A stretch of 64,000 bases of DNA, taken from Streptomyces sp. NBC_01478. GTDB lineage: Bacteria; Actinomycetota; Actinomycetes; Streptomycetales; Streptomycetaceae. A program made the translations under genes and the position numbers. The notes beneath the pieces are model-generated. The model ran no database searches, was not told the origin of the DNA, and saw only the letters and a list, made by a program, of their open reading frames with translations. Within the stretch, counting starts at the first letter, position 1. Each line of letters starts with the position of its first letter. Positions 1 through 23,454 of this stretch are shown piece by piece. The stretch is from assembly GCF_036227225.1 (NCBI RefSeq), contig NZ_CP109444.1:248001-312000 (forward strand), written 5' to 3'.

Positions 1-770
1 CGGCGTTGTTCGTGGACGGCTCCGAGCGAGCGGGCCAGGGAGGGGATCACGATGTCGAGGGTGCCGGTGCCGGGAACGACGACGGTCTGTTCGTCGAGTG
101 CGTCGAAGACGTCGTCGATCAGCCGCTGGGCCATCCTGGGGGCCTTGGGCCGGATCACCTCAACCAGCTTGCGGCGTCCGGCTTTTCGCAGAGCGGCAGG
201 GGATCCGTAGCGTTCCAGCAGCCAGGTCACAGCCTGATGGTCCAGACGCGGTCCCAGGACCCGCTCGAGGCTGGGGTGGAACTGGGTGAGCAGGCCGCGG
301 ATCCGGTTGGAGGTGCGGGTGGCCTCGGCCGCCAGATCCTGGTCGAAGCCGACGAGGACCGTGAGTTCGGCGGTGATCTCGTCGGTCGCCTCCAGCGAGC
401 GCAGTGTGTGCGGCAGGGTGCGGGCGGCGTCGGCGATCACGGCCGCGTCGCGGGCGTCGGTTTTGGCCTCGCCCGGGTAGAGATCGGCGATCCGCCGCAT
501 CGACAGGCCCGGCAGGTAGGCGACCTTGCAGCCGGCATCCCGGGCCACCGTCAGTGGCAGGGCGCCGATGGAGGCGGGCTGGTCGACGATCACCAGGACG
601 GTGCCGAACTTGGCCTTCAGCTTCTCGAAGACGTCCCGCAGTTTCGGCTCGGTGTTGGGCAGGGGTTTGTCGAAGACCTTCTTGCCGGCCGGGGTGAGTC
701 CGTGTCCGTGATGGGTGCTCTTGCCGACGTCCAGGCCGAGGATGACGCCTATGTCGTCGTTGTCGTTCAC
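1..770 (-). CDS. IS110-family transposase, 5' part (runs off left edge)
   Basis: The minus-strand frame opens at a GTG (768-770) and stays open to base 1, so about 256 residues of the N-terminal part are visible. It begins with a DEDD-type RuvC-like fold: residues near the start read GVILGLDVGKSTHHGHG, and a later stretch reads VIVDQPASIGALPLTVARD, followed by YLPGLSMRRIADLYPGEAKT and DARDAAVIADAARTLP. These are the catalytic-region motifs of IS110-type transposases (DEDD_Tnp_IS110). IS110 elements lack classical inverted repeats, so the element end cannot be fixed. The C-terminal transposase_20 domain lies outside the window. The visible part has no frameshift, so it may be active. Confidence 0.88.
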   Translation of the reverse strand, partial: MNDNDDIGVILGLDVGKSTHHGHGLTPAGKKVFDKPLPNTEPKLRDVFEKLKAKFGTVLVIVDQPASIGALPLTVARDAGCKVAYLPGLSMRRIADLYPGEAKTDARDAAVIADAARTLPHTLRSLEATDEITAELTVLVGFDQDLAAEATRTSNRIRGLLTQFHPSLERVLGPRLDHQAVTWLLERYGSPAALRKAGRRKLVEVIRPKAPRMAQRLIDDVFDALDEQTVVVPGTGTLDIVIPSLARSLGAVHEQR

Positions 771-1845
771 GCCGTCCTCCCGAACGGATGTCGTGCGTGC
801 TGGCCGGGGCGTTGGCGTCGTATGCGCGCATCCACGTTATGCAGACCTGCCGCCCGCGTACTGCCGGGCATTGCGCCAGGCCGGGCGGTAGTCGGACCTC
901 TCATCAGCGTCTCCAACGGCGCCTCCCGGGCCCGGTGGCACCACCCCCCAGGTCATCGGTTCGACAGGGGGGAACAGCCATGCCGGGCCCGGAGGCCAGC
1001 GGTCCCATTGCGGAACCGCGAAGAAGATAACGGGGGAGCCTGGGGGTGCGGGAACCGGGGCTCCTGCGGACAAGCGGGGCGTGGTGCGGGGGCGGTCGTC
1101 TCCGGGGCCGTACACGGGCGGGAAGCAGGCGGAGGCACAGGGCAGGAATCGGGGCGGAGACCTCGAGGAGAGGCTGGGGACGCCGCGGCGGGCGGGCGGG
1201 GCGTCGTGCGCGGGCGGCCGCTTCCGGGGCCGTACACGGGCGGGAAGCAGGCGGAGGCCAGAGGCGGGTACCGGCGCAGAGACCCCGAGGGCAGGGCCGG
1301 GGGCGCGGCTGCGGACGGGCGGACCCATACGGCGGTGGCCGTCTCCGGGGCCGTAGTGGGCCGCTGTTCCCCGGGAGGGAAGGTGTCTCTTGGGCGTTCG
1401 GTCGGGGAGCGGACCGGGTGGGTGTGTCTTCGGTGTCCGGTGCGGCGCCGTTCCGGGCGGGCGGCCCGCTCCGGCCGCGGGTGCCTTGTGTGTCGTACGA
1501 CTGCTGCCCGCCTTCCGGCACGCGCAGCGCCCCCGCCTCCTCCCACCCTCCTCCGACTCCCCTCCCACTGCCCTCTCCTTTCCTGCGCGGCGGGGCTGGG
1601 GAGGGGTGCCGTGTGTGCTGCTCTCCGCCGTGCCGTATCGCCGTGGTGGTACGGGAGTCGGCCCGCCGGGCAGGTGTCGGTCCGGTGGGAGGCCCTGCCC
1701 GGGGGCCGCGGGAGGAGAGAGAGGTTCGGGGGCAGGGGAGGTCGCGGTCGCGGGGCCGGGACTCCGTGGTGCCGGGGCCGGGCTTCCCCGGGCCTGCCGG
1801 AGGGGGCGGATCGGGGGGGCCGGTTCCGTGTCCGGGGGGCGGGTG
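771..1845. other. Gene-poor GC-rich region between IS110 and the signalling island
   Basis: Several frames stay open here only because stop codons are rare in this composition. None shows a domain, a convincing ribosome site or Streptomyces-like codon positions. The stretch holds degenerate 120-bp direct repeats (1081-1322) and a pyrimidine-rich patch near 1520-1590. I see no gene. Confidence 0.6.
1081..1322. repeat. Degenerate tandem repeat, about 120-bp unit
   Basis: Two adjacent units of about 120 bp share a nearly perfect core (TCCGGGGCCGTACACGGGCG, then GGAAGCAGGCGGAGG) at about 1101-1137 and 1222-1258. A shorter third copy of the core start (TCTCCGGGGCCGTA) lies at about 1342-1355. The repeats are not in a gene and precede the 3' end of the NmrA-like gene. 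Confidence 0.7.
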
Positions 1846-2781
1846 TTACGGCGTCTGTGGGTGGGGGCCGGGTTCGTCCGGGGGCGGGGTGAAGGCTTCG
1901 AGGTGGTCCCGGGCCCAGGTCCGGAAGGAGCGGGCCGGGTGGCCGGTCAGGGTGCGGACGGTGTCCTCGACGTGGGCCTTGGCGCCGGCCCGCTGGCGTT
2001 CCGCGCTCGCCAGGAGGGCTTCGACGACCGGGGGCGGGTAGCGTCCGCTCAGCGCGGCGCGGGCCTGATCAGGGGTCAGTTCCTGAAAGCGCAGCGGGAT
2101 GCCGAGCAGCCGGCCCAGCTCGCGGGTCTGGCCGGCGGCGGTCAGGGCCTGCGGTCCGGTCAGGGTGTAGGCGCGTCCGGCGTGGCCGTCCTCGGTCAGG
2201 GCCCGTACCGCGACCTCGGCGATGTCGCGGGGGTCCACGCAGGCGTTGGGCGAGGTCCCGTACAGCGCGCGGACGGTGCGCTCGCGGCGGACGGGGGCCG
2301 CCCAGGACAGGGAGTTGGACATGAACGCGCGCGGGCGCAGCAGGGTCCACTGCAGGCCGCAGCCGCGCAGCAGGTCCTCGTTCGCGCGCTGCCGGCGGGT
2401 GAGGAGGTCGTCGGCCCCGGGGTCCAGGACGGCCGCCGCGGAGAGTTTCACCACCCGCCGCACCCCGGCCTTCACCGCGGCCGCGACGAAGGCCGCGTCG
2501 TCGCCGCCGTCGACGCGGGCGGTGACCAGGAACGCCGTGCGCACACCGTGCAGGGCCCCGGCCAGCGACGGCGGGTCGGTGTAGTCCCCGGCGACCGTCT
2601 CCGCCCCCGGGAAGACCCCCGCGGCCTTCGCCGGGTCCCTGGTCATGACCCGCACCCGCAGGCCCGCGGGCAGGGCGCGGACCACTTCCCCTCCCACCGT
2701 CCCCGTCGCGCCCGTCACCAGGACCACCGGGTCCCGGCCGCGCCCGGCCCGCGGCAGCGCCCGCCGCCCGTCCTCACCCAT
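1846..2781 (-). CDS. NmrA-like NAD(P)-binding oxidoreductase (atypical SDR)
   Basis: This 311-residue protein carries a Rossmann fold with the nucleotide motif VLVTGATGTVGGEV near residues 20-33. It is followed by the NmrA/azoreductase-type pattern: RVRVMTRDPAKAAG after beta-2, then GDYTDPPSLAGALHGV and the strand FLVTARV. It lacks the YxxxK catalytic pair of classical SDRs at the usual place, as expected for NmrA/HSCARG-type proteins, so its role may be redox or NADP sensing. It lies divergent from the ArpA-like receptor at 3200, with an ARE-like site between them. A job in making or modifying the butyrolactone signal, like the reductases of other AfsA clusters, is inference. The upstream leader is strongly pyrimidine/purine-asymmetric. 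Confidence 0.8.
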   Translation of the reverse strand: MGEDGRRALPRAGRGRDPVVLVTGATGTVGGEVVRALPAGLRVRVMTRDPAKAAGVFPGAETVAGDYTDPPSLAGALHGVRTAFLVTARVDGGDDAAFVAAAVKAGVRRVVKLSAAAVLDPGADDLLTRRQRANEDLLRGCGLQWTLLRPRAFMSNSLSWAAPVRRERTVRALYGTSPNACVDPRDIAEVAVRALTEDGHAGRAYTLTGPQALTAAGQTRELGRLLGIPLRFQELTPDQARAALSGRYPPPVVEALLASAERQRAGAKAHVEDTVRTLTGHPARSFRTWARDHLEAFTPPPDEPGPHPQTP

Positions 2782-3130
2782 GCCCCACCACCCGTCCCTC
2801 CCCCGCCCCTTCCGCCCCCGCCCGTCTCTCCCTCTCCCTCATCCGCTCCCGCATCGCCTTGTCCCCTCTCCCTTTCCTCATTTCTTTTCCCCTTTCTCCT
2901 TTCTCCCGCGTTCCTCCGCGCCCGCGCCCCTTCCGCTGCCCGTCCCGTCCTCTTCCACGGGTTCTTTCCGCAGGTTCTTTCCGCGGGTTCTTTTTACGGC
3001 TGTTCGCCGCGCGTTATCCGGTTTCTTCCGGTTTCCCGGCCGGCGGGTCTGCCGGGCGGGGGCGGGCCGGGGTCCGGGGGCGGTGCGGTGTGTGCGGGGT
3101 GTTCGGTCTGCCGGGGCGGGGCCGGACACG
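2782..3130. other. Polypyrimidine-rich divergent intergenic region
   Basis: On the plus strand, 2782-2960 is almost entirely C and T, with runs such as TTTCTTTTCCCCTTTCTCC. It is followed by a short tandem repeat of (C)GGTTCTTTCCGC at about 2957-2990. No gene is seen. It is the purine-rich leader of the NmrA-like gene on the minus strand and leads into the ARE1 site on the plus side. Confidence 0.6.
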
Positions 3131-3158
3131 ATAAGATTCGGACTGGACGGTTTTTATT
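3131..3158. promoter_or_regulatory. ARE-like operator 1 (GBL receptor site)
   Basis: The imperfect palindrome has a right half GACTGGACGGTTTTTATT and a left half ATAAGATTCGGA. The core TGGACGGTT is shared exactly with the sites at 6088 and 7675 and is nearly identical at 12499. It lies 41 bp before the receptor start at 3200 and between divergent genes, so it could control both. Binding by an ArpA/ScbR-type receptor is inferred from resemblance to known autoregulatory elements. Confidence 0.72.
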
Positions 3159-3199
3159 GGGCCTTCGGGCCCGTCGGACACGGAGGACCGGGGGCGGCG

Positions 3200-3862
3200 A
3201 TGCAGGACCGGGCGATCCTCACCCGCCAGGCGATCCTCGCCGCGGCGGCCGGGGTCTTCGAGGAACGCGGCTACCGGGCCGCGACGATCAGCGAGATCCT
3301 CGCCCGGGCGGGGGTGACCCGCGGTGCGCTCTACTTCCATTTCCCCTCCAAGGAGGATCTGGCGGAGGGGGTGATCCGCGAGCAGGACGGCCGGCTGCCC
3401 GCGGTGGGCCCCGAGTGCGCCGTCCAGCAACTGGTGGACACCGTGGTCCTGCACGCCCACCGGCTGCGCACCGACCCGGTGGTCCGGGCCGGTGCGCGGC
3501 TCGCGCTCGACCAGCAGGCCGAGGGGCTCGACCGCGGCGGATCCTTCCGGCGCTGGGGCGAGGTCGGCACCGGCCTGCTGGAACAGGCGCGGGAGCGCGG
3601 CGAGCTGCTGCCGCACGTGGTGCCGGCCCAGACCGCGGGCGTCCTGGTGGGGGCCTTCGCCGGAATCCAGGCCCTCTCCCGGTCCCTGTCCGGCTACCAG
3701 GACCTGCCGCGCCGGGTCACCGGCCTGCTGCGGCACGTGCTGCCGTCCGTCGTGATCCCCCCGGTGCTGGCCGCGGTGGACCTCTCCGAGACCAGGGGCG
3801 CCCGGGTCCAGGAGCAGCTCCACGACACGGTCGGCGTGCCGGGGCAGGCCCCCCTCACCTGA
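3200..3862 (+). CDS. ArpA/ScbR-type TetR gamma-butyrolactone receptor (copy 1)
   Basis: This 220-residue TetR-family regulator has its N-terminal helix-turn-helix at residues 8-55, with the signature of GBL receptors: FEERGYRAATISEILARAG, then VTRGALYFHFPSKEDLAEGV. The ligand domain keeps a Trp in SFRRWGEVG, at about the position of the Trp needed for ligand binding in ArpA (family knowledge). The start ATG follows GGAGGACCGGGGGCG. The ARE-like site at 3131-3158 suggests autorepression. It is very similar along its whole length to the receptor at 12565 but uses ordinary Streptomyces codons (CTG, GAG, CAG). Its 3' end overlaps the convergent monooxygenase by 8 bp. Confidence 0.9.
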   Translation: MQDRAILTRQAILAAAAGVFEERGYRAATISEILARAGVTRGALYFHFPSKEDLAEGVIREQDGRLPAVGPECAVQQLVDTVVLHAHRLRTDPVVRAGARLALDQQAEGLDRGGSFRRWGEVGTGLLEQARERGELLPHVVPAQTAGVLVGAFAGIQALSRSLSGYQDLPRRVTGLLRHVLPSVVIPPVLAAVDLSETRGARVQEQLHDTVGVPGQAPLT

Positions 3863-5681
3863 CCGCGCCCGGCGCCGCATCCCCCGCCCCCGCCCCCACT
3901 CCGGCCACCACACCCGCACCCGCACCCGCATCCGTGTCCGTGTCCGCATCCGTGTCCGTGTCCGTGTCCGTGTCCGCACCTGTGTCCCGCCGCCGCGTCG
4001 CGGTGCCGGCGGCCGCCCCGCTCCCGGTGGCGGGGGCCGTCCCGGTGGCGGGGGTGTCCGGCTGCTCCTGTTCCCGGCCGGCGTCCCGGCGGAAGTAGGC
4101 GCCGAGGGCGGGGGCGAGGGGGCCGGCGCCGGCCGCCCAGGCGACGTATCCGTCCGGCCGCACCAGGACCGCCCCGCCCGGCAGGGCGGCCGGCCCCTGG
4201 ACCCGCACCACCCGCAGCAGCCCGGCCCACGGCCGTGCCTGCGCCTCCCAGCGGCCGCCGCCGTCCGCGTCGGACAGCAGGAGCAGCGGCCGGCCGGCGG
4301 CCAGCAGGCCGATCACGTCGGTGCGGCCCTGCCCGGTGGCCAGTTCGGTGTTGGGCAGGAACCGTCCCTCCCAGGGCGAGGGATCGGGGGCGCGCGCGGG
4401 CAGCACCGTGTCCTGGGCGCTGACCATCGAGGCCAGCACCCCGCCCTCGCCCTCCCCGCCCCGTGCCAGCAGCTCGCCGAACAGGGTGCGCAGCGGGTCC
4501 AGGCCGGCGTCCGGGCGCATCAGGGCGAGCTGGGCGCGGGTGTTGTCGATGACCCGCTGCGCGGCGGGGCGGCGTTCCAGGTCGTAGGTGTCCAGCAGGC
4601 CCGGCGCCGCGGCGCCGCGGACGGCCAGGGCCAGTTTCCAGCCGAGGTTGAGGGCGTCCAGCACACCCGCGCTCAAGCCCTGGCCGCCGATCGGGAAGTG
4701 GACATGGGCCGCGTCCCCCGCCAGCAGGATCCGCCCCGCACGGTAGGAGCGGGTGATACGGCTGAAGTCGCTGAACCGGCTCAGCCAGCGCGCCCGCCCC
4801 ATCGCGACCTCCCGCCCGGTGATCCAGGCGACCTCCCGGCGCAGTTCCTCCAGGGTGGGCGGCACCTGCCGCCCGCGGTGCGCACCCGAGCAGTTGAGGG
4901 TCCGCAGACGGACCGCACCGGACGGCACACCCCCGCCCCCCGCGACGCCGCCCCCGGCCTCCCCGACGGCCTCGGCCCCCGTGACGGCCCCGGTCTCCAT
5001 AGCGGCCCCGGTCTGCGTGACGGCCTGAGGCTCCGTGACGTTCTTGACGACGATCCAGCCGCGTTCGGTGCGGTGCCAGCCCGGGCGCAGGGCGCCGGGC
5101 TCCTCCAGGAGTACGTCGCCGGCCAGCGCGGAGACCGTGGCCGGGTAGCTGCGGCAGGCGAAGCCCGCCTGCTCGCGCACCGTGCTGCGCGCCCCGTCCG
5201 CGCCCACCGCGTAACGGGCCGTGCAGGTCACCGCCCCCCGGCGCCCCTGGGCCGTGACCCGTACCCCCTCCGGCCCCTGGCGCACTCCGGTCACCCGCAG
5301 GCCGCGCAGGATCACCACACCGGCCGCCCGCGCCCGCATCTCGAAATGCCGTTCCAACTGCTCCTGCTCGCACTTGAGGACCGGCGGCGGCTCCAGGGCC
5401 GGCGCGCACATGTCCAGCCCGGGCATCCCCGCGAAATGGAACCCGCAGCGCGTCGCCGCCGGCGCCGCCCGCCCCCCGGGCAGGCCGGCCAGATGCCCTC
5501 GCCGCACCAGGCTCTGCACCGCCCGGGCGTGCAGCGTGGTCGCCTTGGGCCGGGCCGACACCCCGCCCCGCTCCTCCACCACCACCGTGCGCACCCCGTA
5601 CCCCGCCAGCTCACACGCCACCAGCAGCCCCACCGGCCCCCCGCCCACGACCACCACCTGCGCCCGCACGTCACCCGACAT
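3855..5681 (-). CDS. FAD-dependent class A aromatic-type monooxygenase
   Basis: The 608-residue protein has the FAD_binding_3 layout: a GxGxxG dinucleotide fold at residues 8-25 (VVVVGGGPVGLLVACEL), a DG motif around 160-164 (VGADGARS) and the GD motif at 318-337 (ILLAGDAAHVHFPIGGQG). It has a C-terminal thioredoxin-like section with weak conservation. The family hydroxylates aromatic or polyketide substrates with NAD(P)H and O2. Two oddities are a Gly/Ala/Thr-rich insertion near residues 217-255, and a C-terminal tail of about 70 residues containing an Asp-Thr repeat made by hexanucleotide repeats in the DNA. The start ATG at 5681 places the ARE-like site at 6088 about 400 bp upstream. A role in signal modification or in resistance is possible; the substrate is unknown. 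Confidence 0.85.
   Translation of the reverse strand: MSGDVRAQVVVVGGGPVGLLVACELAGYGVRTVVVEERGGVSARPKATTLHARAVQSLVRRGHLAGLPGGRAAPAATRCGFHFAGMPGLDMCAPALEPPPVLKCEQEQLERHFEMRARAAGVVILRGLRVTGVRQGPEGVRVTAQGRRGAVTCTARYAVGADGARSTVREQAGFACRSYPATVSALAGDVLLEEPGALRPGWHRTERGWIVVKNVTEPQAVTQTGAAMETGAVTGAEAVGEAGGGVAGGGGVPSGAVRLRTLNCSGAHRGRQVPPTLEELRREVAWITGREVAMGRARWLSRFSDFSRITRSYRAGRILLAGDAAHVHFPIGGQGLSAGVLDALNLGWKLALAVRGAAAPGLLDTYDLERRPAAQRVIDNTRAQLALMRPDAGLDPLRTLFGELLARGGEGEGGVLASMVSAQDTVLPARAPDPSPWEGRFLPNTELATGQGRTDVIGLLAAGRPLLLLSDADGGGRWEAQARPWAGLLRVVRVQGPAALPGGAVLVRPDGYVAWAAGAGPLAPALGAYFRRDAGREQEQPDTPATGTAPATGSGAAAGTATRRRDTGADTDTDTDTDADTDTDAGAGAGVVAGVGAGAGDAAPGAVR
3911..3987. repeat. Hexanucleotide tandem repeat inside the monooxygenase 3' end
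   Basis: Units of CGCACC and CGTGTC alternate over about 75 bp. Read on the minus strand they encode a run of alternating Asp and Thr in the tail of the monooxygenase. Such repeats can change length by slippage in 6-bp steps without breaking the frame. Confidence 0.85.
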
Positions 5682-6692
5682 CCCCGGCCTCCCCCATCTC
5701 GTCCCGGACCACGCCCTCCCAGCACCGCACCCGCCGCCGACGGAACACCGAAACCCGGAACCGGAGGACACCGGCGAGCACCGGAGCACACCGGGAGACC
5801 GGAACACCGGAGCACCGTGCGAAGACGGAAGCAGGGCGCAGGGGCCGAGACGGCGACGGCGACGGAGGGGGAGGGCGGAGGCGGGAGGAGGCGGACGGCA
5901 TCCCGCGCCGCACCGTGCTCTGCGCGGCACGGCCTCTCCCCCTCCGCCCTCCCCTTCTCCCGCCTTCAGCCTGCCTGTCAGTTCTGCCTCTGCCAGCCCT
6001 CTTACGGCTTCTCGCGGCTTCTTCCGGCGCGGCCCGGCACAGGTTCTGCGGGGCCGGGCGGACCGTCCCAGGGGTGCGGACGCCGCCAAAATATACCGGG
6101 TGGACGGTTCTTTGCAATGGGGTCCGGAGAACCGTCCGGGAGAGGAGCGGGGAGGGCGTCGCGGGAGAGGCGGGCACGGGCCGGGGCCCGCGTCCGGGAC
6201 GGCGGCCGTCCGCGCGCCGGGGCGGGCAGCAGTGCGACGGGGGCGCCTGCCGGAGGGCGGGGACTCTTCCCTCCGGGGCATGCGGTGCGGGGGCATGTGC
6301 GGTCCGGGGGCATGCAGTCCGGTGGGCGGACGAGTCCGGTGGGCGGACGGCTCCCGGGGCGGGCGGACCGGGCCGGTACCCGGGAAGAGGAGGGCGGGCT
6401 GGTGCAGGGAGGACAGCCCCCCGGGGGGGCCGGCACCGGGAGGACACCCCCAGGGGGACGGGACGGCGCCCGGGACCAGGCTCCGGGGGCCGGAGCCGGG
6501 CGCCGCAGCCGGGGAGTCGAGGGCCAGGAGTCGGAAGCCGGGATTCGGAGCCGGAACCAGGACCCGGGGGCCAGGACCCGGGAAGCCGGGGGCCGGGAGC
6601 CGGGGGCGCAACCGAGGGCGCCCGCCGGGCCAGGCCGGGCGGGCGGGCCGGGGCACGCGGGTCGGGCCGGGCGGGCGGTGAGCCGGGTGAGG
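5682..6692. other. Long leader region upstream of the monooxygenase, downstream of the SARP
   Basis: No convincing gene is visible in this kilobase. It contains the ARE-like site at 6088-6117 and a G-rich plus strand from 6120 to 6720 with many CCGGGA/GCCGGG repeats. A 21-bp direct repeat at about 6667-6687 recurs at about 6695-6715, inside the SARP 3' end. If transcription of the monooxygenase begins at the ARE-like promoter, its leader would be about 400 nt. Confidence 0.55.
6088..6117. promoter_or_regulatory. ARE-like operator 2
   Basis: The left half is AAAATATACCGGG and the right half is TGGACGGTTCTTTGCAA. The TGGACGGTT core is identical to sites 1 and 3. It lies about 407 bp upstream of the minus-strand monooxygenase and about 575 bp beyond the SARP stop, so the monooxygenase is the likeliest target. 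Confidence 0.68.
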
Positions 6693-7577
6693 TCAGGCCG
6701 GGCGGGCGGTGAGCCGGGGGGCCGTGCCGGCGGCGGGGGCGGTCACGGGGGCGCTGTCGGGGCGGGCGGTCAGGATGGAGCGCTGCAGGCGGCCCAGCGG
6801 CGCGGAGGGCTCCAGGCCCAGTTCCGCGACGAGGGTGGAGCGCAGCCGCTGGTAGACGTCCAGGGCCTCGCCGCGCCGGCCCGCGCGGTGCAGCGCCACC
6901 ATGAACTGGCCGTGCAGGCTCTCGTGCATCCGGTGCTGGTTGACCAGCACCGTCAGCTCCGGCAGCAGCTCGCGGTGGCGGCCCAGGCGCAGGTCGGCGT
7001 CGATGCGCTGGTCCAGCGCGCACAGCCGGGCCTCCTCCAGCCGGCGGGCCTCCATGCCGATCTGGCTGCCGGCCTGCAGACCGGTCAGCGCCGGCCCGCT
7101 CCACAGCTCCAGCGCGCCGGCCAGCCGGCGGGCCGCTCCCGCGTAGTCCTCCGCGTCCATCGCCCGGTAACCGGTCCCCGCACGGCGCCCGAACTCCCGG
7201 TGGTCGACCGTGCCGCCCCGGGTGCGCAGCCGGTAGCCGCCCGGCACGGTGGCCAGAACATCCTTGGCCCCCAGCCGCCCACCACCCCCAGCGCCCTCGC
7301 CCCCGCCTTCCCGCTCCCCCGCCTGCGGCCGCCGCCCCGGCGCGGCCAGCGCCGCGCCGATCAGCTCGCGCAACTGCAGGACGTAGGTCTGCAGGGTGGT
7401 GCGCGCACTGCGCCGCGGCATCGCCCCCCACAGCTCCTCGACCAGCGCGGCCACCGGCACCACCTGATCGGCGCGCAGGGCCAGCAGGCCCAGCACCCGC
7501 CGCGGCTTCGGCGCCGTCGGCACGACCGACACACCGTTCTCACGCACCGCCAGCGCACCCAGCACTTCGATGTCCAC
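6693..7577 (-). CDS. SARP-family transcriptional activator (short form)
   Basis: At 294 residues this is a SARP reduced to its core, an OmpR-type winged helix (about 1-95) followed by a BTAD domain (about 125-270). DNA-binding landmarks include VDIEVLGALAVRENG at the N-terminus, RRVLGLLALRADQVV and ELWGAMPRRSARTTLQTYV. BTAD landmarks include FMVALHRAGRRGEALDVYQR and LVAELGLEPSAPLGRLQ near the C-terminus. The start is GTG 7577 because GGGGGAG lies six bases before it; a TTG at 7583 is less likely. A Gly/Glu-rich linker (about residues 85-105) sits between the domains. An ARE-like site 98 bp upstream suggests direct control by a GBL receptor, as for other pathway SARPs. No biosynthetic target cluster is in the window. 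Confidence 0.9.
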   Translation of the reverse strand: MDIEVLGALAVRENGVSVVPTAPKPRRVLGLLALRADQVVPVAALVEELWGAMPRRSARTTLQTYVLQLRELIGAALAAPGRRPQAGEREGGGEGAGGGGRLGAKDVLATVPGGYRLRTRGGTVDHREFGRRAGTGYRAMDAEDYAGAARRLAGALELWSGPALTGLQAGSQIGMEARRLEEARLCALDQRIDADLRLGRHRELLPELTVLVNQHRMHESLHGQFMVALHRAGRRGEALDVYQRLRSTLVAELGLEPSAPLGRLQRSILTARPDSAPVTAPAAGTAPRLTARPA

Positions 7578-7674
7578 ACTCAACTCCCCCACGAGGCCGC
7601 CACGACAGCAGGCACACGGCCCCGCACTCCGGGACCGCCCGACGCCCGGGCCGGCACGGCACCCGAACCCCTCG

Positions 7675-7704
7675 ATAAAAAAACAGCATGGACGGTTTGT
7701 CAAT
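7675..7704. promoter_or_regulatory. ARE-like operator 3 (SARP promoter)
   Basis: An A-rich left half (ATAAAAAAACAGCA) is followed by TGGACGGTTTGTCAATG. The core matches sites 1 and 2 exactly. It lies 98 bp upstream of the SARP GTG on the minus strand. The local A/T richness contrasts with the surrounding DNA of about 75-80 percent GC and may include the promoter. Confidence 0.75.
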
Positions 7705-8264
7705 GTGCGGGGGGCATACCGCCCCCGGGAACGCACAGATCCGGCCACCCCCGCACCCGCCGGAAGCACGGGCAGGACACGCACGGGACACGCCGGCAGG
7801 ACAGGGGCGCGGCACGGGCGGACCGCCCGGCCGGGAGCCGGCGCGGGACACGGAGCACCGGATGCCGGGCCAGGTGTGCGGGGGATGCCGGGCGGGGGGA
7901 TGTGCGGGGTGAGGGGATGTGCGGGGTGGGCGTGCGCCGCGCGTGGGGGGTGCGGGGTGTTCAGGGCGTACGGGGGTTGCGCGGGGCGGGGGCGTCCGTC
8001 CCGGCCTTCGGCCGCGCTCTCCGCCGTACGGCGGACCCCGGTCCGCAGCCGGCGCCCTCCCCGGGGGTGCCGACGGGGCATCCCCAGGGGGGCGGGGGGC
8101 GGGGTGTGCGGCCGGAAGTGTGCTGCCCGTTCCGGCCGTGCGGCGGATCACCGGAAGAAGGCGAGCCGGGCAAGCAGAGGCGGGACGGGGCGGGCCGGGG
8201 CGGGCCGGGGCCGGGTGGGTGAAGGGAGGGAGGGAAGGAGGGAGGGAGGGGGTGGCCGGGCGGT
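7705..8264. other. Intergenic region between TetR2 and SARP
   Basis: No gene is seen. The plus strand becomes G-rich towards 8260, and 8223-8254 is a run of GGGA/GGGAA units immediately beyond the stop of the TetR gene at 8265. It could form a G-quadruplex on one strand or a C-rich structure in the transcript. A GC stem near 8008-8035 (GGCCTTCGGCC and CCGCCGTACGGCGG) may be a terminator. Confidence 0.5.
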
Positions 8265-8888
8265 CTAGGGGCGGGGGGTGGTGCCGGCGGTGTCGAGGGC
8301 GGCGTGCAGTGCCACCGGGGCGAGCGTGGGCAGCAGCAGCCGCCAGAACTGGGCGATCACGGGCCGCGACAGCCACGCCGTGTCCCGCGCGCCGAGCACC
8401 TCGAACCCCACCGTCGCGGCCACCACCGCGCTCACCACCCCCGCGGGCGCGACCCCCCGGCGCAGTTCGCCGCCCCGCCCGGCCAGGTGCACCGCCTCCC
8501 CCACCCACCCCTGCCACAGCGCACGCAGATCCGCACACGGCACCCGGGTCATGTCACCGCCGAGCCGGAACCCCGCCCGCAGCACCACGTCCTCACGCAG
8601 CCGCCCGGCCAGCCGGTGCGTCACGTCGATGAGATGCTGCAGCGGCCCCGCCTCCTCACCCGCCACCCGCCCGGTCAGCACCCGCAGGGTGTCCGCCGCG
8701 GACTCCTCCACCGCGTCCGCCAGCTCCGCCTTGCCCGCGAAATGGAAGTGCAGCGCCCCGCTGCTCACCCCCGCCCCCGCACTGATCACCGCCAGCGACG
8801 CGGTGGCAAACCCCTGACCGGCGAAACTCTCCGCCGCCGACCGCACCAGGGCCTCCCGGGTACGCGCCGCACGCTCCTGCTTGACCAT
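8265..8888 (-). CDS. ScbR2/pseudo-receptor-like TetR regulator
   Basis: This 207-residue TetR-family protein starts MVKQERAARTREALVRSAAE and has the helix-turn-helix AVISAGAGVSSGALHFHFAG. That is the variant signature (ALHFHF rather than ALYFHF) seen in the second, pseudo-GBL-receptor type of ScbR relatives. A Trp pair (LWQGWVGEAV) lies in the ligand domain. Such proteins often answer to antibiotics or other butenolides rather than to the GBL itself (family knowledge), and here that role is inference. The start ATG is 8888. No close promoter is obvious, and the nearest ARE-like site is 830 bp upstream. It reads in the same direction as the SARP. Confidence 0.85.
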   Translation of the reverse strand: MVKQERAARTREALVRSAAESFAGQGFATASLAVISAGAGVSSGALHFHFAGKAELADAVEESAADTLRVLTGRVAGEEAGPLQHLIDVTHRLAGRLREDVVLRAGFRLGGDMTRVPCADLRALWQGWVGEAVHLAGRGGELRRGVAPAGVVSAVVAATVGFEVLGARDTAWLSRPVIAQFWRLLLPTLAPVALHAALDTAGTTPRP

Positions 8889-9547
8889 CCAACACTCCGT
8901 CACCGAACCGAGAACACCAAAGGGAAACCCCACACCCGCCACACCCGCCGGCCCGCGGGAAAGAGCAGGAACGGACGGACACACCGGCATACCGCCCCCT
9001 GCATCCGCCCGGCAGGGACACACCGCCGCCGGACACCGGACACCGGGCGGAAGACAGCCGGACCGCAGGCCGAAGACAGAAAAGACGGACGCCGTACGCA
9101 CAGCGGCGCAGCCGGCGACAGCACCGGACAGACCGCACCCGGCCCCCGGGCACCACGACGCCGGACACCCAACGCCCGGCCACCCGGGCGCCCGGCCACC
9201 GCGGCACGCGGACCCCCCGCGGGCAGACCCCGCGCGCCGCACCGCAGGCCGGCACCCCGCAGCACACCCGGCAGGCCCGCCACCACCGGACAACATCCAG
9301 CACCAGCGGGCCGCCCCGAGCCCGGACAGGACCCCCACCCCGCCGGGCGCCGGGCCCGGCCGTGGCGGGGCGCGCCGTGCCGGACACCGGGCCGGGCGCA
9401 CCACGCACCGCGCCACCACCCGGCACCGGACCACCAACAGCACCGCCCGCCCGCACCCGGGACAGTCCGCACCGCCGGAAGCCGCCAGAACACCCCGCAC
9501 CCCCGGGAACCGCAGCGCGCCGTGCCGTGGGGCGCCGGAAGACTCCA

Positions 9548-9600
9548 CGACCGACCGACCGACCGACCGACCGGTGCGGGCGGTGCGGGCGGTGCGGGCG
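9548..9600. repeat. CGAC tetranucleotide and GTGCGGGCG nonanucleotide tandem repeats
   Basis: Six perfect copies of CGAC (9548-9571) are followed directly by three copies of a 9-bp unit GTGCGGGCG. They are non-coding and lie about 120 bp to the left of the ARE-like site 4. Confidence 0.85.
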
Positions 9601-9718
9601 GGTGCCGGTGTCCTCCCGGGGCACGGCGGACGCCCGCACCGGCCGGCGGGACAGGACGCCGGCAACCCTTCACGGCGTACCCCTCCCCCACCGCGCGGCC
9701 GGACGATGCCACCCCACC

Positions 9719-9746
9719 GTAACAAACCGCATGCGTGGTTTACATG
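9719..9746. promoter_or_regulatory. ARE-like operator 4
   Basis: This is the most symmetric of the six sites. AAACCGCATGCGTGGTTT reads as AAACC-GC-ATGC-GT-GGTTT, flanked by GTAAC and ACATG. It lies between the divergent TetR2 and afsA genes, 830 bp from the first and more than 1 kb from the second, so its target is unclear. Confidence 0.7.
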
Positions 9747-10295
9747 AGGGGGCGGGAAACGCACCCACCGAACCGGCCACCCCGGCAGCCCGCCGGGCCG
9801 TCACCGCCAGGCACGGGGCGGCCGGTAGACCGCACCCGCCCGCCCCCGGTGCCACGCCTGACCCCGCACCCGGCCGCCGTCTCCGCCACCGTCGCCGCCG
9901 TCGCCGCCGTCGTCCGCGCGGGCGGCCAGCACCGCGCACAGCACGGCGCACAGCGCCGCCAGCTCCTCCCGGCTCGCCCGCCCGCGCTCCACCCGGAAAA
10001 CACTCTCCGCGCTGCTCACCCGGCCCGCACTCCCTTCTTCCCGACGTGCGGCCACCCTGCGCCGGCGCACTGGAGGACCACTCCCGCCCCGCTCGAGAAC
10101 CACCCCGCACCGCCCCCGCCGCAACCGGTCCGGGATGCCCCCGCACCCCGCCCCGGCCGGCCGCCGCCCGCCGCGCCGCACCGCGCACACCACCGGCCCC
10201 CCGAAGCCCGGCGCCACGCCCCCCGGCACGGTTCCGGCCATCCGGCACGGAGCGGCCCCCTCCGCATTTCGTGCCCCCGGAAGCCCCGATACCCC

Positions 10296-10325
10296 TAGAA
10301 AGAAAACCGAGTGGTATGTATCTTC
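10296..10325. promoter_or_regulatory. ARE-like operator 5 (afsA promoter region)
   Basis: The left half is TAGAAAGAAAACCGAG and the right half is TGGTATGTATCTTCT. It diverges most from the GGACGGTT core but keeps the AAAACC/GGTATGT symmetry and the A/T-rich flanks. It lies 470 bp upstream of the preferred afsA start and 200 bp upstream of the alternative start at 10525. Confidence 0.6.
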
Positions 10326-10641
10326 TGGTCCGGAGACCGCGTCACACCGCACCGCACGGCACCGCACGAGTGCACCGCACCGCCGCACCACGCTGCCGCA
10401 CCGCCCTGCACGACACGGCACCGCACGCCCCACCCCGCCCCACCCCGTCCCGTCGCGTACGGCGGGACACCGCGGGGCACCGCACCTCACCCGATCCGTC
10501 CCGATCCCGGCCCCAGGGGGAACCATGTCCGCACCCACATTCCACACCCACCGCCCGGCCCGCACCACGGCACCCGCCCCGCAGGACACCGCACCACCAG
10601 CCACACCCGCACACACCCCGGACACCGCACCACCCGCCCCG

Positions 10642-10722
10642 CACACCACGCACACCACGCACACCACGCACACCACGCACACCACGGGCACCACGGGCAC
10701 CACGGGCACCACGGGCACCACG
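10642..10722 (+). repeat. Nonanucleotide tandem repeats in the afsA leader
   Basis: Five copies of CACACCACG (10642-10686) are followed by four of GGCACCACG (10687-10722). They are in frame with afsA and would encode Thr/His and Thr/Gly repeats if the upstream start at 10525 were used. With the start at 10795 they are untranslated leader. Confidence 0.9.
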
Positions 10723-10794
10723 GGCACCGGACCGTCCACGAACACCACCCGCACCGCAATGCCCGCAGGCACCGCGGACACAAGGAGCACCGGG

Positions 10795-11775
10795 ATGCCC
10801 GCGGGCGCCGGGGACAGGATGTCCGCGGGTGCCGCGGGTGCCGCGGGTGCCGGGGTGTCAGCGGGCCAGGACGCCTTCGGTCACCTCTCCCTGACCCGGA
10901 CCGTCCCCAAGGAGTTCGTCCACCGCGCCTCCGTCGCCGAGGTCCTGCTCACCGACTGGCACCGCACCGGCCAGGACCGCTTCACCGTCAGCGCCCAATG
11001 GCCCCGCGCCCACTCCTTCTTCACCCCCATCAACGGCCGCCACGACCCCCTCATCGCCGCAGAAACCATCCGCCAGAGCGGACTCCTCCTCGCCCACACC
11101 GAATACGGCGTCCCCCTCGACCACAACTTCGTCATGCACGACCTCACCCTCACCCTCGACCCCGCGCACCTCCACGTCGGCCCCGCACCCGCCGCCCTCA
11201 CCATCGACGTCACCTGCTCCGACATCACCCGCCGCCGCGGCCGCACCGCCGCCCTGCGCTACACCAGCACCCTGCGCCGCGACGGCCACACCCTCGCCCG
11301 CGCCGACGCCTCCTGCACCTGCACACCCCCCGCCGTCTACAGGCGCCTCCGCGGCAACCGCACCCACACCACCCCCCTCCCCCTCACCGCCCCCACCGCA
11401 CCCCAGACCGTCGGCCGCACCTCCCCCACCGACGTCGTCCTCACCCCCACCCCCCACCCCCACACCTGGCAACTCCGCACCGACACCCGCCACCCCGTCC
11501 TCTTCGACCACCCCGTCGACCACATCCCCGGCATGGTCCTCCTCGAAGCCGCCCGCCAAGCCACCACCGCCCACCTCGGCCACCCCACCCTCCCCCTCAC
11601 CCTCACCACCACCTTCACCAACTACGCCGAACTCGACACCCCCTGCCACCTCCAAACCCACCCCACCCCCACACCCACCACCACCCGCCCCACCCCCCAC
11701 CAGACCATCCACATCACCTGCCACCAGAACAACCGCCCCGTCTTCCACTCCACCATCACCACCACCACCCCCTAA
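10795..11775 (+). CDS. AfsA-family gamma-butyrolactone synthase
   Basis: AfsA-type enzymes join a beta-ketoacyl-ACP to dihydroxyacetone phosphate, the first step to A-factor-like signals. Two AfsA hot-dog repeats are visible. The first runs from about residue 40 ([20 protein letters not shown], then [20 protein letters not shown]). The second, from about 230, contains [20 protein letters not shown] and [12 protein letters not shown] prefer ATG 10795 (326 residues) because AAGGAG lies seven bases upstream and the length matches the family. An in-frame ATG at 10525 (416 residues), also with a G-rich ribosome site, would add a repeat-rich tail. The downstream half avoids G at third positions (Leu CTC, Glu GAA). 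ARE-like sites upstream suggest receptor control. Confidence 0.9.
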
Positions 11776-12498
11776 CACCCCCGCCACCACCCCCACCACA
11801 CCCCCGGCCGACCCCGCACCCCACCCCCACCGGGACCAGCACGACCACACCCCCACAGGCCACCACCCCCGCCAACCACACCCCCACCGGCCACCACGCC
11901 ACGGACCGAACCGAAAACCCCGCCCCGGACCGACACCGGACACCCACGCCACCGGACAGTCCGCCCCGCCACCGGACACACCCACGGACACCACGACACG
12001 CCCCGGGGCCTTCCCGCCCGCACCACCGCGCCCGCCCCCGAACCGCACCCCCGCCGAACACCGCCGACCGCCCGGCCGGGAAAACCCGCCGGCCGCGAAC
12101 CGGACCCCGAACAGCACCCCCCTCAGACCCCACCACCCCACACACCCACCGCCCGGCCAGCACCACACCCCCGCCCGGCCGGCCACCACACCCCGGACCA
12201 CCAGCACAACGGCCCACCACAAACCACCCGGCACCACCCGGCACCCCCACCCGCCGGACAGAACACCCCCACCCACACCCACCGGCCGGACCACAGAAAC
12301 AAACCCGCCCGGCAACCGAACCCACCCCTACAACAAAAAACCCACCCCACACAAAACAATCAGACACAGATGCGGACAAATCGCCGCAAAAAATGTGGGT
12401 TCACCCGCAGAAACCCACCCCCACACCCCACACCCGCCCACCACACACCCGGCAACCGATCACCGCACAACCCCCCGGACCCCCCACCAAACCCCGTA
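11776..12498. other. C-rich, G-poor intergenic region after afsA
   Basis: Over 700 bp of mostly C and A on the plus strand, with no supported gene. A 7-bp stem (GTGGGTT at 12395-12401 with AACCCAC at 12412-12418) could be a weak terminator. The strand bias matches that of the flanking coding sequences, so it is not a product of codon choice alone. Confidence 0.5.
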
Positions 12499-12528
12499 GA
12501 CTATACGAACTGGACGGTATTTTTAACC
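12499..12528. promoter_or_regulatory. ARE-like operator 6 (receptor copy 2 promoter)
   Basis: The left half is GACTATACGAA and the right half is CTGGACGGTATTTTTAACC. It shares ACTGGACGGT exactly with site 1, in front of the related receptor. It ends 36 bp before the ATG at 12565, where a bound receptor would block initiation. Confidence 0.72.
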
Positions 12529-12564
12529 GCGGGCACCCCACCCGCACCGAAAGAAAGCCACCCC

Positions 12565-13263
12565 ATGCCACAACCCAAACAAGACCGCGCCATCCGCACC
12601 CGCCACACCATCCTCATGGCCGCAGCCACCGTCTTCGAAGAACGCGGCTACCAAGCCGCCACCATCAGCGAAATCCTCACCACCGCCAACGTCACCAAAG
12701 GCGCCCTCTACTTCCACTTCAAATCAAAAGAACAACTCGCCCAAGGCGTCCTCGCCGGACAAGACCAAAACCTCACCGTCCCCCCACACCCCTGCAAAAC
12801 CCAAGAACTCATCGACACCACCATGCTCCACGCCCACCGCCTCCAAACAGACCCCCTCGTCCGCGCCGGCGTCCGCCTCACCCTCGACCAACGCGCCGAC
12901 GGACTCGACCGCACCGCCCCCTTCCACCACTGGACCACCATCGTCACCAACCTCCTCACCCAAGCCCAACAACAAGGCGAACTCCTCCCCCACGTCAACC
13001 CCCAAGAAACCGCCCAAATACTCGTCGGCGCCTTCGCCGGCATCCAAGCCATGTCCCAAGCAACCACCAACTACCAAAACCTCCCCACCACCATCACCAC
13101 CCTCCTCCAACACACCCTCCCCACCATCACCCACCCCGCCACCCTCACCACCCTCAACCTCACCCCCCAACGAGCACACACCATCGCCACCCTCACCACA
13201 CACACCAACACAGCAGAAACCGCAACCGCCATCACAACCGACACAAACAACAACGCAGCCTAA
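12565..13263 (+). CDS. ArpA/ScbR-type TetR gamma-butyrolactone receptor (copy 2)
   Basis: The 232-residue protein has the GBL-receptor HTH (FEERGYQAATISEILTTAN, VTKGALYFHFKSKEQLAQGV) and a Trp in FHHWTTIVT at about the ligand-contact position. It matches copy 1 (3200-3862) nearly residue for residue through ELLPHV and ILVGAFAGIQAMSQ, then ends in a Thr-rich tail. A purine-rich GAAAGAAAG precedes the ATG. Codon use is abnormal for Streptomyces: Leu is almost only CTC, Lys mostly AAA, Gln CAA and Glu GAA, so G is avoided on the sense strand. The ARE-like site 36 bp upstream suggests autoregulation. The next feature downstream is an IS3-family element. Confidence 0.9.
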   Translation: MPQPKQDRAIRTRHTILMAAATVFEERGYQAATISEILTTANVTKGALYFHFKSKEQLAQGVLAGQDQNLTVPPHPCKTQELIDTTMLHAHRLQTDPLVRAGVRLTLDQRADGLDRTAPFHHWTTIVTNLLTQAQQQGELLPHVNPQETAQILVGAFAGIQAMSQATTNYQNLPTTITTLLQHTLPTITHPATLTTLNLTPQRAHTIATLTTHTNTAETATAITTDTNNNAA

Positions 13264-13436
13264 AAACACCCACACACCAACCAACCCGCCCCACAACCCA
13301 CGCCAGCACCAACAACCAACCCAGCCACCCCACAACAAACAACACACACCCGGCACCAGAACCAACACCCTGCGCCACAGACCGGAGCCAACCAGGAGAA
13401 GCACGGGAGGTTCCCCCGGTGTGCGGGAGGTGCTGA

Positions 13437-14354
13437 TCAGCTGGTCAGGGCGGGTTGACGGGGTTTCAGGTTCGTTCGTTTGGCCGGTGCCTGGTCGGCG
13501 TAGTGCTTCTCCTCGAACTCGACCGGACTGAGGTAGCCGAGCCGTTTCTGGATGCGCCGGGAGTTATAGAAGCCGTCGATGTACTCGAACAGCGCGAGGT
13601 TCACCTCGGCCCGGGTGGCGAAAACGCGCCCGCGGATGCACTCCGTCTTGATCAGCATCCACAGGTTCTCCGCGAGGGCGTTGTCGTAAGAGTCCCCGAC
13701 TGAGCCCATGGACGCGTGAACTCCCGCCCGCACCAGGCGAGTTGTCAGCTTCACGGACGTGTACTGACAGCCGTGGTCGGCGTGGTGGACGAGCGTGCCG
13801 GGCTCGACCTCGCGGGAGGCGAGGGCGTACTCGAGGGTGGTCAGGACCAGGTCGGCGTCCGCGCGGGCGGAGGTCTCCCAGGCGACGACCCGGCGAGAGA
13901 ACGCGTCCCGGATCGCCGAGAGCCACAAGGGCCCCTCACCGGTGGTGATCATGGTGAGGTCGGTGACCCACAGCCGGTTCGGCGCGGGTGCGGCGAAGTC
14001 CCGCTCGACCAGGTCCGGGGCGAGTGTGGCCTTGGGATCGCGGCGGGTGAAGGCGCTTCGGCGTGGGCTGACGCCCGCGATGTCGGCCTCGCGCATCAGG
14101 CGCTCGACCCGCTTGCGGCCCACATGGACGCCCTCGCGCTTGAGCACGGCGTGCACGCGCGGCGAGCCGTAGATCCCGCCCGAGTCGGCGTGGATCTCTT
14201 TGATCTGCTCGGTGAGTTCCACGTCCCGGCGCCGGCGTTCGCACGGCTCGCGCTCGGCACGACGCCAGCGGTAGTACGTCGAGGAGGCGATGGACAGTTC
14301 CCGCAGTACGCACTCGACTCCCAGGTGCGGGTGCTCGTCGACGAGCGCCGTCAC
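13437..14354 (-). CDS. IS3-family transposase OrfB (rve integrase domain)
   Basis: At 305 residues it has an HTH_21 region (EIHADSGGIYGSPRVHAVLK) followed by a DDE integrase core. The three acidic residues sit in WVTDLTMI, HHADHGCQYTS and the later SYDNALAENLWMLIKTE. The C-terminus has YNSRRIQKRLGYLSPVEFE, typical of IS3/IS150 transposases. It begins within the last codons of orfA and would be made as an OrfAB fusion by -1 frameshifting. It appears intact. Confidence 0.92.
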   Translation of the reverse strand: MTALVDEHPHLGVECVLRELSIASSTYYRWRRAEREPCERRRRDVELTEQIKEIHADSGGIYGSPRVHAVLKREGVHVGRKRVERLMREADIAGVSPRRSAFTRRDPKATLAPDLVERDFAAPAPNRLWVTDLTMITTGEGPLWLSAIRDAFSRRVVAWETSARADADLVLTTLEYALASREVEPGTLVHHADHGCQYTSVKLTTRLVRAGVHASMGSVGDSYDNALAENLWMLIKTECIRGRVFATRAEVNLALFEYIDGFYNSRRIQKRLGYLSPVEFEEKHYADQAPAKRTNLKPRQPALTS

Positions 14355-14659
14355 CTGGGCCGGGTCGGGTCGAGCTGCGCCGCGAAAAACGCCGAAGCCG
14401 TCCGCAGGACCTCGTTCGCCCGCTTGAGCTGGACGTTCTCCTTGCGCAGCGCGGCGAGTTCGGCGCGTTCATCGGTGGTCAGCCGGTCATCCCGCTCGCC
14501 GGCGTCCGCCTCGGCCTGACGGATCCAGCCGCGCAGGGCCTCCGGATGCACGCCGAGATCGACAGCAAGCTTCTTGATCTGCGGCTTCGGGTCGGAGGTG
14601 CGGTACATCCGCACCGCACGCTCACGCAACTCCAGCGAGTACTTTCTGGGAGCGGCCAT
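14351..14659 (-). CDS. IS3-family transposase OrfA (HTH)
   Basis: This 102-residue protein begins MAAPRKYSLELRERAVRMY and has an HTH_Tnp_1 fold (KKLAVDLGVHPEALRGWIRQ). A leucine-zipper-like segment follows (ELAALRKENVQLKRANEVLR). It binds the element ends and overlaps orfB by 4 bp. The start ATG 14659 was chosen because the conserved family N-terminus begins there; upstream codons are outside the family pattern. Confidence 0.9.
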   Translation of the reverse strand: MAAPRKYSLELRERAVRMYRTSDPKPQIKKLAVDLGVHPEALRGWIRQAEADAGERDDRLTTDERAELAALRKENVQLKRANEVLRTASAFFAAQLDPTRPR

Positions 14660-14727
14660 GGTCGATGTTCCTCTCATGAGAACCATCTGACCCTCTGTCA
14701 ACACACTCCGCATCTCGGGGGAACCTC

Positions 14728-15150
14728 GGTCCACGGGGCTCGGACCTGTGTGTTCGCCCCCTTTTTAGCGCGGACATGAGCTGAGTCGAGGACTGCACGG
14801 GACAGGTCGATCAGGCCCTGCTCGTCCAGGAGTTGGAGAACTCTCTGGTGCAGTCGGCCCCAGACACCGGCCCGGGACCAGATGGCGAAGCGGCGGTGCA
14901 CGGTCGACTTCGACGCCCCGAAGCACGGCGGCAACGCCCGCCATGCGCAGCCGCTGACCAGGACGTAGACGATCGCGGCGAAGACGCCTCGTCATCGATG
15001 TTCGCGACCCCGCCGCCCTGCGGACGAACCCGCGCCGGCGGCAGCAACGGCCTCGCCAACTCCCACAAGCCGTCCGGAACGATCCATCCCCACCGTCCAC
15101 TCCCCATGCCCAGCACAACCACCAACTGACCATGTAGGAAACGGTCTTAG
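14728..15150 (-). pseudogene. Decayed IS5-family transposase, cut by the IS3 element
   Basis: The minus strand reads MGSGRWGWIVPDGLWELA and PLLPPARVRPQGGGVANIDD in one frame. It loses a base after DDEA, and continues in another frame as LPPCFGASKSTVHRRFAIW and LSRAVLDSAHVRAKKG. A second single-base loss in a G run follows. Only the N-terminal half remains, because the IS3 element starts where the DDE core should continue. The sequence near 15129-15150 looks like the original outer end. Confidence 0.82.
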
Positions 15151-23300: not shown

Positions 23301-23454
23301 GTCGGGTTGTTGTCGGGTGCTGGGTGAGGGTGAGGGTGAGGGTGAGTCCGGTGCCGGCGAGACAACCGTCGATGAGGTCGGGCCGGAGCTGGATATGGCG
23401 CAGGCCCCGGCGGAGAGTGCGTTCGAGATGCTCGTCGTCGGTGAAGGCGGTGTT

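Follow-up and report, generated by a model that had tools for sequence, protein, structure and literature searches.

Do the signalling genes at the left-hand end of a 64,000-nucleotide stretch of the Streptomyces sp. NBC_01478 genome form a quorum circuit of their own, or do they belong to something larger? The stretch analysed here (the window) comprises bases 248001-312000 of a 12.12 Mb genome assembled as one contig, NZ_CP109444.1 (C1 in coordinates below; all other positions are those of the window unless a comparison locus is named). An earlier note on this DNA had described a 'complete', 'self-contained' circuit of seven genes, encoding an AfsA/ScbA-type signal synthase, three ScbR-family regulators, a SARP activator, an NmrA-like oxidoreductase and a class A FAD monooxygenase (FAD-MO), which share six palindromic operator-like sites. 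We conclude instead that this island is probably the regulatory part, on the right-hand side, of a larger, predicted antibiotic cluster with furaquinocin-type biosynthetic genes. In that cluster two receptor-type and two pseudo-receptor-type repressors are predicted to occupy nine strong autoregulatory elements (AREs) until a signal made by the AfsA-type enzyme frees the receptors and the SARPs likely switch the cluster on; we give this reading a probability a little under 0.8. The presence together of a synthase, receptors and ARE-type operators points to a circuit of the AfsA/ArpA (gamma-butyrolactone) type.

Operator-like sites of the island

Candidate AREs were scored with a symmetric 26-bp matrix built from 26 training sites, all from relatives outside this clade. 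These were drawn from 42 listed hits with at most two mismatches in loci L014, L015, L016, L017, L055, L059 and L060; the other 16 hits, including all four from L016, were removed on visual inspection as probable chance matches or duplicates. Sites of distant families may score too low with this matrix. Mismatches were counted against the 18-nt footprinted consensus of S. filipinensis, AAACVGNNBVNNCSGTTT (PMC7480387). The six palindromes were recovered where the earlier note had placed them, with scores of 24.0-36.8 bits (Table 1), four of the six containing TGGACGGTT or TGGACGGTA as it had said, and the matrix scan of the whole 64 kb gave no other site of at least 9 bits, for a null expectation of 0.016 per 10 kb. 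To the left of the window there are strong sites at C1:241331 (34.6 bits), 244944 (31.7) and 244971 (28.2) and weaker ones at C1:247037 (15.0 bits) and 245260 (about 10). This makes 11 sites of at least 9 bits in the 124 kb scanned, every one of them within 19.2 kb. Of the seven ScbR/SARP genes, six have such a site upstream, as do afsA and the FAD-MO gene. Exact matches to the consensus occur at nine distinct places in the 12.12 Mb genome, four in each of the two copies of the cluster (see below) and one elsewhere (C1:11135377), and a reversed control pattern gave one match per strand over the whole genome.

The expected enrichment over simulated sequence holds for close matches and fails for loose ones: within the island, five sites with at most two mismatches were observed, against 0.87 expected and no more than 4 in any of 200 Markov simulations, whereas three-mismatch sites show no excess (three observed, 7.5 expected). 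The latter include the site with its core at 12503, for which the consensus scan alone was rejected as proof because matches at this level are reached by chance; its conservation and the matrix from relatives set it apart. All six sites, compared as 34-bp units, were recovered in replicons of Streptomyces sp. NBC_00493, AD2-2 and strain P3. Their non-coding flanks have identities of 0.60-0.82, below those of the sites themselves; flanks reaching into scbR1 are high (0.92-0.93) because coding sequence is included, and the scbR2-side flank ranges from 0.74 to 0.93. Least conserved outside its 18-bp core is the 9720-9745 site (core 9724), the core itself being identical in NBC_00493 and AD2-2, and in L059 its counterpart at 23390 precedes the genes for acyl-CoA carboxylase (ACC) beta and the pseudo-receptor. 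A further two-mismatch hit, before the aromatic prenyltransferase gene (C1:194596), was rejected: it scores below 9 bits and at most 20 of its 34 bases are found in NBC_00493 and AD2-2.

How unusual this density is was assessed by running the same matrix over 45 records, of which 40 are loci from genomes and five are plasmid records; many are cut off at contig ends. Four or more sites were found in 28 of the 45 records at a cut-off of at least 10 bits, in 24 at 15 and in 14 at 20; with the seven loci that supplied or duplicate training sites excluded, the corresponding counts are 21, 17 and 9 of 38. Whether one to three sites is usual thus depends on the cut-off; at the strict one of 20 bits, 31 of 45 records have three or fewer. 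That operator-like sites precede nearly every gene of the island at unusual density is upheld, as this cluster, AD2-2 and NBC_00493 have the top site counts at each cut-off tried. At 20 bits they hold nine sites each and the next highest of the 43 others has six; at 10 bits they hold 10 (this cluster), 10 (AD2-2) and 9 (NBC_00493) and the next highest has seven. Counted by predicted sites, the clade is at the dense end of such circuits. S. filipinensis has five sites, with binding shown for all (PMC7480387).

Table 1. Features of the island and its left-hand border, in window positions. Kept, bases of the 34-bp site retained in the related replicons.
Feature	Position	Strand	Evidence
IS110-type insertion, right part (element starts left of window)	1-1036	-	PF01548 166 bits on window 3-770
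NmrA-like / SimC7-like NAD(P)H oxidoreductase	1846-2781	-	PF13460, PF05368; SimC7 5l3z 187 bits
Predicted ARE before scbR1, possibly also NmrA gene	3132-3157	.	24.0 bits; 2 mismatches; 31/34 bases kept
ScbR1, receptor-type ScbR-family regulator	3200-3862	+	NF041196 221 bits; AvaR1 181 bits; receptor side of tree
Class A FAD monooxygenase (FAD-MO)	3855-5681	-	PF01494, PF21274; 4k5r 274 bits
Predicted ARE ~410 bp upstream of FAD-MO	6089-6114	.	25.4 bits; 2 mismatches; 33/34 kept
SARP activator	6693-7577	-	PF03704 139 bits, PF00486
Predicted ARE 100 bp upstream of SARP gene	7677-7702	.	36.8 bits; exact consensus (0 mismatches); 33/34 kept
Pseudo-receptor-type ScbR-family regulator	8265-8891	-	NF041196 170 bits; pI 9.3; grouped in tree with L055, L059, L060, L017 genes
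Predicted ARE between ACC epsilon and pseudo-receptor	9720-9745	.	29.8 bits; 1 mismatch; 26-27/34 kept
ACC epsilon subunit	9801-10019	-	PF13822 30.1 bits, cut-off 25
Predicted ARE between ACC epsilon and afsA	10300-10325	.	29.3 bits; 2 mismatches; 34/34 kept in three replicons
AfsA/ScbA-type signal synthase	10525-11775 (alternative start 10819)	+	NF041195 372 bits over residues 126-412
Predicted ARE before scbR2	12499-12524 (core 12503)	.	26.8 bits; 3 mismatches; 33-34/34 kept
ScbR2, receptor-type regulator	12565-13263	+	NF041196 227 bits; AvaR1 178 bits

A larger cluster within a terminal repeat

All seven genes named earlier are present, and those for AfsA and the three ScbR-family regulators score above the curated profile cut-offs (200 bits for the AfsA profile NF041195, 150 bits for the ScbR-family profile NF041196). 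An eighth, for the ACC epsilon subunit, had been missed; residues 1-34 of its product are 97% identical to a gene of the NBC_00493 plasmid (L053). All eight keep open reading frames. The conserved part of AfsA begins near 10900, and window 10525-10818 would encode a possible N-terminal extension built of HTT/GTT tandem repeats.

The circuit continues beyond the left edge of the window. An IS110-type insertion, whose window 1-1036 part has four further genome copies at 99-100% apart from the repeat copy described below, splits the island from the ACC beta gene (C1:245334-246890) and from the rest of a cluster that extends about 58 kb further left. From IS110 outward this left part carries ACC beta, a SARP, an Fe-S protein, a fourth ScbR-family gene (ScbR4; 180 bits with NF041196), another SARP, a thioesterase, an aromatase/cyclase (ARO/CYC), metK and mevalonate genes, the last recognised by tblastn. 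Beyond these are genes for a nitrosuccinate lyase (NF052556, 794 bits, cut-off 650) and an FAD protein, a type III polyketide synthase (PKS), an aminotransferase, an acyl-CoA ligase, a methyltransferase, a polyprenyl synthase of the undecaprenyl-diphosphate-synthase family (PF01255) and an aromatic prenyltransferase. The type III PKS, DegT aminotransferase, acyl-CoA ligase, aromatic prenyltransferase, polyprenyl synthase and nitrosuccinate lyase with FAD protein, identified with Pfam and NCBIfam, make up a furaquinocin-type set together with the mevalonate genes; the fur gene list used for comparison was Table 3 of PMC9686526, with the cupin gene fur2 left out. The descriptions 'complete' and 'self-contained' therefore fail, since IS110 cuts the circuit, and ScbR4, ACC beta, two additional SARPs and three of the strong sites lie further left.

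Gene order matches that of the linear plasmid NZ_CP107868 of NBC_00493, with most genes at 68-98% protein identity (tblastn). The shared order takes in the fur-type genes, ARO/CYC, SARP, ScbR4, Fe-S protein, SARP, ACC beta, NmrA, ScbR1, FAD-MO, SARP, ACC epsilon, AfsA and ScbR2. Exceptions are a condensation-domain gene, which matches in two pieces at 54-68%, and short sigma-factor fragments at the margin of the compared stretch (58-69%); plasmid genes at 8981-14957 have no match within it. The regulatory end of the plasmid has the same operators and order and differs in having no annotated gene between ACC beta and NmrA, the spot occupied by IS110 here, and in the decay of its pseudo-receptor.

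Window 1-13212 recurs inverted at C1:11863596-11876806 with 100% identity (rounded); on closer inspection the copies differ by one base in length at one point at least, near window 12121, and are 99.9% identical over the last 2.6 kb. Mirror-image matches at about 71, 81, 101 and 240 kb agree with a repeat of about 261 kb. The locus lies inside this terminal inverted repeat and is therefore present twice. The inner edge of the repeat (window 13212; C1:11863596) falls within the 3' end of scbR2, so that the two encoded proteins have different C-terminal tails. Immediately beyond this edge, to the right of scbR2, is an IS3-type transposase pair with rve and HTH_Tnp_1 domains (window 13437-14734). 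More AfsA- and ScbR-type genes are found elsewhere in the genome (C1:11324025-11325621, 9007819-9008388 and 1437215-1437403), and cross-talk between circuits is therefore possible.

In a tree of 81 ScbR-family proteins, ScbR1 and ScbR2 share a 14-row group (100/99) on the receptor side, and the pseudo-receptor and ScbR4 share a 25-row group (98/92) on the opposite side. Scores against the PDB agree with this split: AvaR1, the nearest entry for ScbR1 and ScbR2 (181 and 178 bits), reaches 52 bits with the pseudo-receptor and 67 with ScbR4. Loci L059 and L060 have a single compact module (SARP, pseudo-receptor, ACC beta, ACC epsilon, AfsA, NmrA, ScbR, FAD-MO), relative to which the clade of the window has ACC beta moved and a second receptor added.

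The proposed switch and its alternatives

For the steps beyond the presence of genes and sites we infer the mechanism from AlpZ/AlpW (PMC7343708), SfbR/SfbR2 (PMC7480387) and SrrA/SrrB (PMC7296167). The receptors would occupy the operators of scbR1/NmrA, FAD-MO, SARP, pseudo-receptor/ACC, afsA and scbR2, and leftward those of ScbR4 and the second SARP. An accumulating AfsA product, presumably a butyrolactone- or butenolide-type ligand, would strip the receptors from these operators, SARP levels would rise and the cluster would be switched on; the pseudo-receptors may shut it down later, as for AlpW. One signal would thereby release most regulatory genes of the cluster together. Control of the biosynthetic genes would probably be indirect and SARP-mediated, because the matrix scan found no site of at least 9 bits in C1:188001-241330, where these genes lie. 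As the leftmost SARP gene has no such site before it either, this control would run through the other SARPs.

Several observations count against this reading. The fork that parts the receptor and pseudo-receptor sides of the tree is weakly supported (90/63), the trend in isoelectric point (pI) used for the same split is general background, and a supposedly receptor-specific tryptophan, tried as a discriminator, is present in all four ScbR-family proteins. No intact match to the pseudo-receptor was found by tblastn between the SARP and ACC epsilon genes of NBC_00493, AD2-2 or P3, so that this gene seems dispensable: NBC_00493 has a decayed remnant (L053 30674-33000, E 1e-8) that is not annotated as a gene in the PLSDB table, and the matches in AD2-2 and P3 are partial and weaker still. 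ACC beta lies about 9.4 kb from the pseudo-receptor gene, whereas the two are adjacent in L059 and L060, and the original gene pair has therefore been broken. Finally, in the matrix scan one of the three SARP genes, the leftmost (C1:239109-239927), has no upstream site, and two sites are distant from the starts they would control (about 830 bp for the 9720 site and the pseudo-receptor, about 410 bp for the 6089 site and FAD-MO).

Three other explanations were weighed against a regulatory end of a larger cluster. The palindromes could be chance A+T-rich promoter sequence in very G+C-rich DNA, as the loose consensus matches by themselves would allow; scores of 24-37 bits against the matrix null, the conservation of the sites and their genome-wide specificity refute this as a general explanation, and we regard it as scarcely credible. 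The view of the earlier note, a self-contained seven-gene circuit in which the NmrA-like protein and the monooxygenase tailor an unusual signal, draws on two of the operators, one preceding FAD-MO and one lying between scbR1 and the NmrA gene, and on the recurrence of both enzymes (NmrA-like genes of at least 50% identity in 10 of the 45 loci, FAD-MO genes in 7). Against it, the circuit runs on past IS110, and the pairing is broken in compared stretches, L055 having NmrA without FAD-MO and L018 the reverse. The nearest solved relatives by sequence are moreover polyketide tailoring enzymes, namely the ketoreductase SimC7 for the NmrA-like protein and, for FAD-MO, the oxygenases 4k5r and 3fmw with a Baeyer-Villiger monooxygenase. 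The unusual signal thus finds no support, polyketide tailoring by the two proteins appears at least as likely as signal tailoring, and we consider this view of the island improbable.

The locus might also be a decaying, inactive remnant, its regulators cut off from the cluster by insertion elements and rearrangements and its sites mere leftovers. IS110 and IS3 copies flank both sides, ACC beta is displaced, there are long non-coding stretches, the NBC_00493 pseudo-receptor has decayed and the condensation-domain gene is matched there in low-identity pieces. Decay of this kind sits poorly with eight open reading frames, with operators better conserved than their flanks and with the presence of most NBC_00493 cluster genes at the identities given above, and it is judged quite unlikely.

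The preferred reading has close parallels. In the alp (kinamycin) system of S. ambofaciens the receptor AlpZ acts on its own gene, on the AlpV SARP gene and on the AlpW pseudo-receptor operon, repressing alpXW, alpV and itself, and two copies of the cluster lie in terminal inverted repeats (PMC7343708); the likeness is one of described arrangement. This layout recurs here, with predicted sites before the receptors (3132, 12499), the SARP (7677) and the pseudo-receptor (9720). Judged by genes and predicted sites, the circuit is AlpZ/AlpW/AlpV-like: its type is already known, and here it is dense and duplicated. Unlike alp, it has two receptors, two pseudo-receptors and three SARPs, and furaquinocin-type in place of angucycline genes. 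Nor are its ACC and pseudo-receptor genes in one operon, ACC beta being displaced, whereas alp has alpXW, of which we take alpX to be a carboxylase-type gene. The AfsA gene lies inside the circuit here, whereas the signalling molecule of S. ambofaciens is called unknown in the available part of that account (PMC7343708).

The sfb gamma-butyrolactone system of S. filipinensis likewise has its five AREs in one cluster, all bound by both the receptor SfbR and the pseudo-receptor SfbR2, and controls biosynthetic genes indirectly (PMC7480387). It differs in having one receptor and one pseudo-receptor, and the available portion of the paper does not describe a terminal duplication. The srr system on pSLA2-L of S. 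rochei also combines a signal synthase, a receptor, six TetR-type repressors and three SARPs on a linear replicon, and the consulted text makes no mention of furaquinocin-type genes (PMC7296167). Its signal is of butenolide type according to published abstracts. The fur clusters KO-3988 and Je 1-369 share with this one a type III PKS, aminotransferase, acyl-CoA ligase, methyltransferase, aromatic prenyltransferase, mevalonate kinase and an FAD protein with a cycloisomerase-like lyase, and the Je 1-369 cluster is also in terminal repeats (PMC9686526). The strings 'SARP' and 'regulat' are absent from the text of that paper as available, so control of the Je 1-369 cluster is not described there. 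A literature search of partial coverage, with most subscription journals outside it, found no published description of the present locus.

The afsA-scbR2 end and the meaning of the locus

The afsA-scbR2 end has a strand-bound base composition. A+C is 0.72 across window 9001-13400 and most extreme in scbR2, where none of 215 synonymous positions is G or T. The orthologs of L013, L053 and L054 have almost the same composition (third positions G 0.03, T 0.00-0.01; L055 G 0.06, T 0.00). In L015 (15190-15771) and L016 (14593-15174) a homologue is encoded on the other strand and its composition is mirrored, so that the bias follows the DNA strand and not gene direction. Among 2033 overlapping 1-kb windows covering 524 kb of this genome, only seven have an A+C of at least 0.70 or at most 0.30, all of them here.

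One tentative explanation, which we think rather unlikely, is that this end is a fossil linear-plasmid end: the plasmid would have joined the chromosome arm with the whole circuit and the furaquinocin-type cluster and then been copied into the terminal repeat, whose inner edge in scbR2 left two receptor alleles that differ in their C-terminal tails; the A/C-only strand would record the plasmid-end past. For 12 linear plasmids (24 ends) we measured A+C over the outer 10 kb, in each case on the strand that has its 3' end at that terminus; several ends look like mutual repeat copies and two of the first 14 contain this very locus. Mean A+C was above 0.50 (to two decimals) in 11 of the first 14 ends and above 0.5 in eight of the later 10 (mean 0.53); interior 10-kb stretches of this genome have a standard deviation of 0.018 and range from 0.46 to 0.53 (n=30). 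Counter to the idea, the biased stretch of SGAir0924 points inward (0.33 in that bin) and the chromosome's own ends average 0.50; among the 24 ends, those without this locus have no 2-kb bin above 0.65. With such mixed results the A/C-rich strand was rejected as a plasmid-end mark, being a weak trend and no explanation. Near linear plasmid ends, a ScbR-family gene adjoins parA/parB in S. xanthophaeus (L126 5682-8739) and an AfsA-type gene does so in NBC_00503 (L132 19480-23207). Four linear plasmids of Streptomyces have 'Helicase associated domain protein' genes in the outermost 4 kb towards both ends (NBC_01343, NBC_01361, NBC_00019 and NBC_01224; L136-L143).

The composition island is a separate observation on mutation or replication in such replicons. 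The circuit itself combines four ScbR-family repressors with nine strong and two weaker predicted operators, a compact and conserved set within a single cluster, and it brings quorum control next to furaquinocin-type genes. It would be a good system in which to study operator sharing between receptors and pseudo-receptors, and the effect of gene dosage on a quorum switch that lies in a terminal repeat.

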